From positions 62,001-126,000 of the forward strand of contig JAFATB010000011.1 in the NCBI GenBank assembly GCA_019244185.1: a DNA stretch of 64,000 bases. The letters are read 5' to 3'. Positions within the stretch are counted from its first letter, which is position 1, and each line of letters begins with the position of its first letter. The position numbers were made by a program, and so were the translations under genes. Below are positions 1-12,881 of the stretch, one piece after another. The DNA is from Acidobacteriota bacterium (GTDB lineage: Bacteria; Acidobacteriota; Thermoanaerobaculia; Gp7-AA8). A model generated the notes under the pieces. The model had not been told where the DNA came from. It worked only from the letters and a program-made list of their open reading frames with translations, and ran no database searches.

Positions 1-1
1 C

Positions 2-1951
2 GGACACTTCATCACGCTGCTGCGCGGCGCGGTCGCCGACGCGTCGACGCCGATCGGCGCGCTGCCGCTGCTCACCGGCGACGAACGCGCGCAACTCGCG
101 GCGTGGAACGACACGCGGCACGACTATCCCGGAGATCGTCCACTGGTTGACTTGTTCGTGCGGCAGGCTGCGCGCACGCCCGACGCCGTCGCGCTCACGT
201 TCCACGGCCGCGACGTCACGTATCGCGAGCTGCAGGCGCGGGTGAGCGATCTCGCGCGCACGCTGCGCGCGCGCGGCATCGGACGCGGCGATCTCGTCGG
301 CCTCTACGTCGAGCGCTCCGTCGAGATGCTCGTCGGCCTCCTCGGCATTCTCGAAGCGGGCGCCGCGTACGTGCCGCTCGATCCCGGTTTCCCCGCGGAA
401 CGCCTCGCGTTCATGCTCGCGGATGCCGCGGCGCGCGTCGTCGTGACGCAGGCCTCGCTCGTCGAACGCGTGCCGTCGGCAAGCGTGGAAAAGATCGTCG
501 TCGACGCCAGCGCGCGCATCGTGGGCGGCGACGCCATCGCGTGCGACGCGCGGCCCGGCGACCTCGCGTACGTCATCTTCACCTCCGGCTCGACGGGACG
601 GCCGAAAGGCGTGCAGATCACGCAGCGTTCGGCCGTGAACCTCGTCACGTCCGTCGCGCGCGAGCCGGGCCAGCGCGCGAGCGACACGATCTGCGCCGTC
701 AGCACGCTCTCGTTCGACATCGCTGTCTTCGAGCTGTTCGTCCCTCTCACCGTCGGCGCGCGCATCCTGCTCGTCGACTCCGAAACGCAACGCGACGGCG
801 CCGCGCTCGCGCGCTTCATCGACGCGAACGACATCACCATCATGCAGGCCACGCCCGCGACGTGGCGCATGCTGCTCGACATCGGGTGGTCCGGCAAAGC
901 GGGCCTGAAGATGATCACGACCGGCGAGGCGTGCCCGCGCGAGCTCGCCGAACGGCTCATCCCCTGCTGCGACGAGCTGTGGAACCTCTACGGCCCGACG
1001 GAAACGACGGTCTACTCGACGCTCGGTCCGATCGTCTCCGGCAGCGGCCCGATCTCGATCGGCAAGCCGGTCGCGAACACGCAGATCCACATCGTCGACC
1101 GCAACTTCCAGCCGCTGCCGGTCGGCGTTCCGGGCGAGCTGCTCATCGGCGGCGACGGCCTCGCGCGCGGCTACCTCGGCCGCCCCGAGCTCACGGCCGA
1201 GAAGTTCATCGCCGATCCGTTCTCCGACGCGCCGAACGCACGGCTCTATCGCAGCGGCGACCTCGCCACGTGGCGTCGCGACGGCACGCTCGAAGTTCTC
1301 GGCCGTCTCGATCATCAGGTGAAGCTGCGCGGCTTCCGCATCGAGCTCGGCGAGATCGAAGCGGTGCTGAACGACCACGCGTCCGTCGATCAGGCGGTCG
1401 TGCATTGCCGCGAAGACCGCCCCGGCGACAAGCGCCTCGTCGCGTACGTCACCGGCGACGCGCCGTCGCCCGACGCGCTGCGCGCGCATCTGCGCACCTC
1501 GCTCCCCGACTACATGATCCCCGCGGCGATCGTCGTGCTCGACCGCTTTCCGCTCACGCCGAACGGCAAGGTCAATCGCCACGCGCTGCCGGCGCCGGAG
1601 CTCGCGCGCGAGCACGACGCGGTCGAGCTGCCGCAGGGCGCGCAGGAAGAGCAGATGGCCGCGCTCTGGTCGCAGATCCTCGGCCGCGAGCGCATCGGCC
1701 GCAACGACAACTTCTTCGACCTCGGCGGACACTCGCTCCTCGCCACGCAGCTGCTCGCGCGTGTGCAAGCGCAGTACGCCGTCGACATTCCGCTGCGCGC
1801 GCTCTTCGAGGCGCCGACCGTGGCGCGGCTGGCGATCAAGGTGGCCGAGGCGCGCGACGCGAACCTCGCCGGCGAGCAGCTCGACGATCTCCTCGCGCAG
1901 CTCGAAGGTCTCTCCGACGAAGACGCCACGATAGCGATGAAGGGACTGTGA
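2..1951 (+). CDS. Nonribosomal peptide synthetase, 5'-truncated (C-terminus of C domain, A, PCP)
   Basis: The reading frame is open from the window edge, so the true start lies upstream. The first ~45 codons look like the end of a condensation domain (LPLLTGDERAQLAAWNDT). A full adenylation domain follows: FTSGSTGRPKG near 580-610, YGPTETT near 990, the GDLATWRRDGTLEVLGR and KLRGFRIELGEIE core motifs, and NGKVNR. The carrier domain has LGGHSLLATQL with the phosphopantetheine serine codon at 1733. Aligning the A4-A5 region to GrsA by eye gives the pocket code D-I-F-Q-I-T-L-V-Y-K, which I cannot assign to a substrate. The protein ends in a short tail (LEGLSDED) like that of the next NRPS, a possible docking segment. 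The stop overlaps the next gene. Confidence 0.95.
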   Translation, partial: GHFITLLRGAVADASTPIGALPLLTGDERAQLAAWNDTRHDYPGDRPLVDLFVRQAARTPDAVALTFHGRDVTYRELQARVSDLARTLRARGIGRGDLVGLYVERSVEMLVGLLGILEAGAAYVPLDPGFPAERLAFMLADAAARVVVTQASLVERVPSASVEKIVVDASARIVGGDAIACDARPGDLAYVIFTSGSTGRPKGVQITQRSAVNLVTSVAREPGQRASDTICAVSTLSFDIAVFELFVPLTVGARILLVDSETQRDGAALARFIDANDITIMQATPATWRMLLDIGWSGKAGLKMITTGEACPRELAERLIPCCDELWNLYGPTETTVYSTLGPIVSGSGPISIGKPVANTQIHIVDRNFQPLPVGVPGELLIGGDGLARGYLGRPELTAEKFIADPFSDAPNARLYRSGDLATWRRDGTLEVLGRLDHQVKLRGFRIELGEIEAVLNDHASVDQAVVHCREDRPGDKRLVAYVTGDAPSPDALRAHLRTSLPDYMIPAAIVVLDRFPLTPNGKVNRHALPAPELAREHDAVELPQGAQEEQMAALWSQILGRERIGRNDNFFDLGGHSLLATQLLARVQAQYAVDIPLRALFEAPTVARLAIKVAEARDANLAGEQLDDLLAQLEGLSDEDATIAMKGL

Positions 1952-11538: not shown

Positions 11539-11546
11539 GGACCGCG

Positions 11547-12881
11547 ATGACGACGATGCAATCGCAGGAACATGTGGTGATCCTCGGCGGCGGACTGGCC
11601 GGCTCGCTCTTCGCGCTCTATCTCGCCCGCCGCGGCGCACGCGTCGATGTCTACGAACGCCGCGCCGATCCGCGCAAGCTCGGCGTGACGAAAGGCGGAC
11701 GCTCGATCAACCTCGGCCTCTCGAAACGCGGCATCACCTCGCTCGCCGAAGTCGGCTTGCGCGACGAAGTGCTCGCCACCGCCGTCGCCATGGAAGGGCG
11801 CGTCATTCACGATCTCGACGGCGCGCAACACTTTCAGCCGTACGGCAAGAACCGGCAGGAAGTGCTGCATTCGATCGACCGCAACGAGTTGAACGAGATC
11901 CTGCTCGATCGCGCCGAAGAGCATCCGAACGTCGCGCTGCACTTCGAGCATCGCTGCGTCGCCATCGATCACGCCACGCGCGAAGTCTCGATCGAGAAGC
12001 CCGGCGGCACGATCGAGCGTCTCCGCGCCGACTGGTTTCTCGGCGCCGACGGCGCGTTCTCGAAAGTGCGCGAGGAGATGCAGCGCGGCCTGCGCGCGAA
12101 CTACAGCCGCGAGTTTCTCGAATGGGGATACAAGGAGCTCACGCTCCCCGCGAATGCCGACGGCTCGTCGCAGCTGAAGCTCAACGCGCTGCACGTCTGG
12201 CCGCGCGGCCACTGCCTCATCGTCTCGCACGCGAACCGCAATGGCTCGCACACGCTCACGCTCTTCCTGCCGTTCGAAGGTCCGGACAGCTTCGAGCACA
12301 TCCACGGCCGCGCCGACATCGAGCGGTTGTTCCGCAAGTTCTTCCCCGATCTCGCGCCGTTGTTGCCGGACCTCTGCGACGAATGGGAGCGCCATCCGAC
12401 CGGCACGCTCGTCACGACCAAGACCGCGCCGTGGCATCTCGATGACTGGCTCGTGCTCGTCGGCGACGCCTGTCACGCGGTGTATCCGTTCTACGGACAA
12501 GGCATGAACTCCGCGTTCGAAGATTGCGCCGCGCTCTCGCGCGCGCTCGCGCAGCACGCCGATCGCGCGACCGCGTTCCGCGAATACGAGCGCTCGCGCA
12601 AGCCGCACACCGACACACTCGCGGAATTGTCGAAAGCGAACTTCGTCGAGCTGCGGCAGAAAGTCGCGTCGCCGCTGTTCCTGCTGCGCAAGCGGCTCGA
12701 CGTCTTTCTCAATCGATTGGCGCCCGAGGGATGGCTGCCGCTGTACACGATGATCGCGCATACGACGATTCCATACGGCGACGCGCTCGTACGCGCGCGC
12801 AAGCAGGATCGCGTGCTGCTCGCCGTCGCGACCACGGCGGCCGCGATCGCGGTGCTCGGCGCGGCGCTGCTCGTGCGCTAA
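11547..12881 (+). CDS. kmo: Kynurenine 3-monooxygenase-like FAD hydroxylase
   Basis: 444 aa. It has the FAD-binding GGGLAG (residues 14-19), the GADGAFSKVR motif and LVGDACHAVYPFYGQGMN, the last being characteristic of kynurenine 3-monooxygenase (KMO). Arg85 (GRVIH) and Tyr99 (QPYG) sit exactly where human KMO has its kynurenine-carboxylate-binding Arg85 and Tyr99, so kynurenine or a close analogue is a credible substrate. The C-terminus ends in a hydrophobic helix (LLAVATTAAAIAVLGAALLV), recalling the membrane anchor of eukaryotic KMO. ATG 11547 follows the previous stop by eight bases. No kynureninase or tryptophan dioxygenase is visible here, so the enzyme probably feeds 3-hydroxykynurenine or a derivative to the NRPS. 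It ends four bases from the convergent CHAT gene. Confidence 0.88.
   Translation: MTTMQSQEHVVILGGGLAGSLFALYLARRGARVDVYERRADPRKLGVTKGGRSINLGLSKRGITSLAEVGLRDEVLATAVAMEGRVIHDLDGAQHFQPYGKNRQEVLHSIDRNELNEILLDRAEEHPNVALHFEHRCVAIDHATREVSIEKPGGTIERLRADWFLGADGAFSKVREEMQRGLRANYSREFLEWGYKELTLPANADGSSQLKLNALHVWPRGHCLIVSHANRNGSHTLTLFLPFEGPDSFEHIHGRADIERLFRKFFPDLAPLLPDLCDEWERHPTGTLVTTKTAPWHLDDWLVLVGDACHAVYPFYGQGMNSAFEDCAALSRALAQHADRATAFREYERSRKPHTDTLAELSKANFVELRQKVASPLFLLRKRLDVFLNRLAPEGWLPLYTMIAHTTIPYGDALVRARKQDRVLLAVATTAAAIAVLGAALLVR

Follow-up and report, generated by a model that had tools for sequence, protein, structure and literature searches.

A reductase-terminated NRPS operon of an Acidobacteriota bacterium with KMO-like and DUF6875 enzymes, and its actinobacterial counterparts

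In the pyrrolobenzodiazepine clusters (anthramycin, sibiromycin, tomaymycin), reductive release by a terminal C-A-T-R module goes together with hydroxylation of the kynurenine type. Both features are also predicted for an operon that begins to the left of, and ends within, the 64,000-nucleotide stretch of an Acidobacteriota contig analysed here (the window). This operon departs from the pyrrolobenzodiazepine plan by an extra enzyme, predicted to bind heme, and in that the product of its kynurenine 3-monooxygenase-like enzyme (KMO) is probably incorporated whole, in the last position. Other described systems share single elements with it. The zigralone (zig) cluster of Micromonospora zingiberis likewise has a DUF6875 enzyme, ZigI, and a tryptophan-derived substrate, but it serves a meroterpenoid pathway, and the gene list given for it contains no NRPS, KMO or reductase release (PMC13307353). 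Fungal NRPS pathways to 1-benzazepines use kynurenine as a building block (pseudofisnin, PMC9598734; terreazepine, PMC7448278), as the line described here may do; apart from being fungal, they differ in that they are not known to have a KMO/DUF6875 pair. A search of the literature for KMO, NRPS and thioester reductase in combination found no paper, and no known product was found for this cluster.

Layout and limits of the operon

Domain calls across the window (Pfam and NCBIfam) define six genes running head to tail on the + strand (Table 1). Four of the five junctions overlap (NRPS1/2, NRPS2/3, NRPS3/MFS and MFS/DUF6875) and the KMO start codon, an ATG, lies 8 bases past the DUF6875 stop, which bears out an earlier note's view that exporter, unknown protein and KMO form part of one operon. 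The same note had counted at least three modules on separate proteins. Leftward extension placed the start of NRPS1 at contig position C15:60646 (L002:646), 1,355 bases beyond the left edge of the window; it also supplied the rest of the protein, including its C domain. As the first protein is thus C-A-T, the line consists of exactly three modules, C-A-T / C-A-T / C-A-T-R. Their three condensation domains are the only ones genome-wide; the third keeps its HHxxxD motif. In reductase lines of the saframycin type, a C-A-T-R module acts iteratively, by Pictet-Spengler chemistry, on a modified tyrosine. Release by a reductase, also proposed at the outset, agrees with a TIGR01746 match at the C-terminus of NRPS3 (331.7 bits; cut-off 213.35) and with the finding of no thioesterase domain in the NRPS line by Pfam and NCBIfam. 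An extra NRPS loading module encoded elsewhere was also considered; the other AMP-binding genes examined resemble the module A domain weakly and fit acyl-CoA synthetases.

Table 1. Positions of genes and domains in the window
Feature	Positions	Strand	Remarks
NRPS1, C-A-T	1..1951	+	only A-T in window; start and C domain left of window edge
NRPS2, C-A-T	1948..5184	+	A2 code DILQLGVVWK
NRPS3, C-A-T-R	5181..9473	+	A3 code DAGDMGHVCK
NRPS3 A domain	~6570-8060	+	
NRPS3 T domain	~8088-8279	+	
NRPS3 R domain (TIGR01746)	~8382-9437	+	Tyr and Lys of SDR-type active site present
MFS exporter	9473..10813	+	TIGR00900-like, score below cut-off
DUF6875 protein (PF21780)	10810..11538	+	predicted heme-thiolate, tryptophan-type oxygenase; invariant Cys58
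KMO (kynurenine 3-monooxygenase-like FAD enzyme)	11547..12881	+	C-terminal hydrophobic stretch

This layout speaks against the pyrrolobenzodiazepine analogy first drawn for the locus, and against a line of that type in which KMO would provide the 3-hydroxyanthranilate for a reductase NRPS of two residues. Although a terminal C-A-T-R module and a KMO are both present, the line has three C-A-T modules, the first beginning with a C domain, and no anthranilate A-T starter module; furthermore, a search of the host genome for kynureninase (TIGR01814) gave no match. The A3 code matches none of the proline codes known to us. We consider this model scarcely tenable.

The limits of the operon were assigned by comparison with a genome of the same family and another genus (G404), which has an identical gene order from a GT87 gene through KMO. 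Identities between the two are 47% for GT87, 66% for DUF5916 (G404 having the only orthologue of this protein among 18 family genomes), 65% for NRPS1, 56% for NRPS2, 51-57% for NRPS3, 71% for MFS, 58% for DUF6875 and 73% for KMO. The three A codes, read by eye, are the same as those of the window line, and the genes flanking GT87 and KMO on the outside differ from those here. In both genomes NRPS1 is preceded by the GT87 and DUF5916 genes, which had been missed previously; here the two overlap by four bases, and DUF5916 is separated from the NRPS1 start by 24 bases. Because of the shared order, the unshared flanks, the distribution of DUF5916 and the tight spacing, we take the operon to span eight genes, from GT87 to KMO (L001:14900 to window position 12881). 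GT87 is a membrane glycosyltransferase, and the DUF5916 protein probably resides in the outer membrane. The cluster has a patchy distribution, since DUF6875 and KMO are both absent, at the limits used, from a congener (G286).

The KMO-like and DUF6875 enzymes

The KMO aligns with solved KMOs over residues 5-432 (E 3.7e-89), far more strongly than with other flavin hydroxylases (E about 1e-15); its best NCBIfam match is VioC, the violacein oxygenase, under the VioC cut-off. In the Pseudomonas fluorescens enzyme, the kynurenine carboxylate is contacted by Arg84, Tyr98, Asn369 and Tyr404 (PMC6376250). Equivalents of all four are kept in the window KMO and in the KMOs of ten actinobacterial clusters (see below). 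All cluster KMOs also carry two pocket changes relative to the P. fluorescens enzyme, His320 to Tyr and Met373 to Leu, so their substrate may differ from kynurenine.

A KMO is a normal member of the kynurenine pathway, and one could suppose that this one, with DUF6875, serves tryptophan catabolism or NAD synthesis and adjoins the NRPS by chance, the more so as a TDO-like gene is present elsewhere in the genome. That gene, a frame of 236 residues on another contig, falls far short of the TDO cut-off (109 against 390.7 bits), and the KMO is the sole one found in a search of the host genome. With kynureninase missing as well, an ordinary kynurenine pathway seems to be absent. No kynurenine-pathway genes were seen upstream of the NRPS line either: a complete kynurenine catabolic operon, looked for there and genome-wide as the finding that would have separated KMO from the NRPS, was not found, the search giving no kynureninase, no second KMO and only the short TDO-like protein, and the link stands. 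Moreover, a KMO match occurs in just 7 of the 148 genomes of the class, and this NRPS is accompanied by KMO and DUF6875 in a second genus as well as in a second phylum. A chance neighbourhood is thus highly improbable. The short TDO-like protein (about 235 aa; L096:5299-6003) is without the usual GTGGSxG loop.

KMO-like enzymes were also observed in other settings. On a plasmid of Eleftheria terrae (L013:16949-24587), methyltransferase, KMO-like enzyme and NRPS genes lie in a row without DUF6875, the KMO-like enzyme having the same pocket changes as the cluster KMOs. Separate from the loci that combine KMO, DUF6875 and C-A-T-R is a conserved neighbourhood of Amycolatopsis/Saccharothrix (L056, L067, L074 and L076), in which a distant KMO-like enzyme is encoded about 6-8 kb from DUF6875; the readable ones (L056, L067 and L074) have His at the Tyr404 position.

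The protein originally listed as unknown belongs to DUF6875 (PF21780; 202.6 bits, cut-off 24.5) and would represent a second tryptophan-related oxygenase, overlooked in the earlier note. In the zigralone report, this recently recognised family ("cytochrome P422") is described as heme-binding tryptophan oxidases, and ZigI is the proposed 7-hydroxylase of an indole intermediate derived from tryptophan, with methylation by ZigH following (PMC13307353). A Foldseek search with the AlphaFold2 model of the window protein (pLDDT 93) returned first AglA (E 2.6e-3; Z 9.8-10.1, the next unrelated fold being at about 7.1). AglA hydroxylates arginine and is of the heme-thiolate type, its heme ligand being Cys44 (PMC12866846). 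AglA and DcsA are YqcI/YcgG heme-thiolate N-hydroxylases, a group with a sandwich fold; they resemble the DUF6875 model in fold (Z about 10) and have a Cys in a CPF/PC motif, but show no significant sequence similarity to DUF6875 and hydroxylate a guanidine nitrogen (PMC12866846). A sequence search of the PDB with DUF6875 gave nothing with five sequences and chance-level matches only with 36. Cys58 is invariant in all 36 DUF6875 sequences, and a weak profile alignment pairs it with the "PC" Cys of YqcI/YcgG proteins. The fold match is suggestive of a heme-thiolate fold shared with AglA. Together with the invariant Cys58, it leads us to infer that the protein is a heme-thiolate oxygenase, tryptophan being the substrate reported for the family.

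The window DUF6875 groups with cyanobacterial sequences (support 99/97), apart from the actinobacterial KMO-linked ones, so its reaction may differ from theirs. A single origin of all KMO-linked DUF6875 proteins was rejected by the AU test (p 0.008, the fragmentary L062 row being left out). This does not establish gene replacement, as a wider, weakly supported clade (85/83) includes both the window and the actinobacterial KMO-linked proteins.

Further DUF6875 genes were noted in other contexts. The cyanobacterial genes nearest to that of the window (L019-L023) have no KMO nearby and adjoin genes for stand-alone A-T-TE proteins whose A code is DPWATGCID or DPWAFGVID; the A-T-TE domains were observed in L020 and L022. 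These genes likely belong to another DUF6875-linked pathway. DUF6875 accompanies an MFS gene, without KMO, in loci of Streptomyces tateyamensis, Kitasatospora and Kribbella (L024, L025 and L026), with NRPS modules adjoining in L024 and L026. In the phylum of the window itself, DUF6875 is encoded in the vicinity of NRPS genes and of an MFS exporter in genome G075 (C24; L090:10057-10710), where a broken second copy lies at C24:41978-42203.

Actinobacterial counterparts and the terminal A code

Scanning named genomes with a three-sequence DUF6875 alignment yielded 71 loci, ten of which (L030, L033, L034, L039, L040, L042, L050, L051, L062 and L085) combine, within reach of one another, DUF6875, a KMO of the window clade, a C-A-T-R module and an MFS gene. 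They come from three Amycolatopsis, four Nonomuraea, Micromonospora echinofusca, Planomonospora and Thermocatellispora. These loci share with the window the four functions, the terminal A code and the clades of terminal module and KMO. They differ in the number of upstream modules, which varies among them, in a Methyltransf_2-type gene present in six of the ten, and in the DUF6875 subclade; GT87 and DUF5916 genes were noticed at none of the ten. The literature searched gave no product for any of them. Terminal modules of window and actinobacteria form one clade (100/99), as do their KMOs (89/80); in neither tree does the window sequence fall within the actinobacterial group. Nonomuraea soli (L051) retains just one module, a C-A-T-R, alongside KMO, DUF6875, MFS and a methyltransferase, a reduced set that links the oxygenases specifically to the terminal module.

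The terminal A code, DAGDMGHVCK, is identical in the window and nine of the ten loci; the tenth, Micromonospora echinofusca, has DAGDLGHVCK (L for M). By comparison, each of the eight unrelated C-A-T-R modules has a different code; two of these codes could be recognised as those for Orn and Gly, which served as a control of code extraction. The ten loci are related and do not count as independent trials; still, with an identity of just about 43% between the sequences, an unchanged code is otherwise hard to explain, making a common substrate likely. The DA...VCK positions resemble codes for aromatic amino acids. The Gly would widen the pocket, and the Asp and His could provide contacts to an amine or a hydroxyl. 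The A1 code, DIFQITLVYK, carries the Asp of alpha-amino-acid codes and probably specifies a small residue; the A2 code is of the glycine type, so residue 2 is probably Gly. The tenth letter, K, was taken from the NGK motif for A1 and A2 and came from code extraction itself for A3.

Proposed pathway and its implications

With moderate confidence we favor an acyl-X-Gly-aryl line in which DUF6875 and KMO make an oxidised tryptophan or kynurenine residue that is loaded last and reductively released. As the genome has no condensation domains besides these three, C1 would accept a donor that the NRPS does not supply. An acyl group is the simplest choice, though another donor could be used; module 1 would then add the small residue and module 2 Gly. 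Before loading, DUF6875 and KMO would oxidise tryptophan or a tryptophan metabolite, and A3 would select the oxidation product, most likely 3-hydroxykynurenine, as third residue. The R domain would release the acyl-X-Gly-aryl-amino-acid as an aldehyde; the residue so reduced is probably the very unit on which KMO acts. The aldehyde would then go on to an alcohol by another reduction, or cyclise with the ring amine to an imine, which with 3-hydroxykynurenine would be a seven-membered ring, by analogy a 1-benzazepine. We know of no terminal reductase in the fungal 1-benzazepine pathways. The product would be exported by MFS.

The earlier note had proposed a KMO-coupled NRPS carrying a 3-hydroxykynurenine-derived unit. 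The coupling holds, KMO and NRPS forming one system in G404 and, with a shared code, in the ten loci; the identity of the unit is likely rather than proved. 3-Hydroxykynurenine is the leading candidate for the KMO/DUF6875 product, ahead of another doubly oxidised tryptophan derivative. Against it stands the known chemistry of DUF6875, which, in the C7 hydroxylation proposed for ZigI, is hydroxylation and not ring opening. That step and the methylation by ZigH agree with a last residue that is a doubly hydroxylated tryptophan, its indole intact: DUF6875 would make 7-hydroxytryptophan, the KMO-like enzyme would hydroxylate the ring again, and a methyltransferase may cap a hydroxyl in the six actinobacterial loci that have the gene. 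As it is the carboxylate of the substrate that the four conserved KMO residues contact, the pocket might admit a different aromatic amino acid; the two altered pocket residues, and the match to VioC, from an indole-type pathway, point the same way. However, solved KMOs are much closer to this enzyme than other flavin hydroxylases, and the window cluster has no methyltransferase. We hold the dihydroxytryptophan less likely. On either reading, the last residue, released by reduction, is very likely an aromatic amino acid that two dedicated oxygenases form from tryptophan.

More doubtful is the full form of the 3-hydroxykynurenine reading, in which DUF6875 would be a heme-thiolate enzyme that opens the indole in place of TDO, KMO would yield 3-hydroxykynurenine, and the DAGDMGHVCK module would load and reduce it, defining a bacterial 1-benzazepine or cyclic-imine family in two phyla.

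Through these findings, an NRPS specificity code becomes associated with a two-enzyme pathway to an unusual building block. Selection by DAGDMGHVCK and the role of KMO-linked DUF6875 enzymes become testable, as does a family of reductively released hydroxykynurenine (or dihydroxytryptophan) peptides in at least two bacterial phyla. KMO, DUF6875, C-A-T-R and the DAGDMGHVCK code together provide a rule for genome mining, and the occurrence of the same enzyme set and code in actinobacteria points to an uncharacterised family of natural products.
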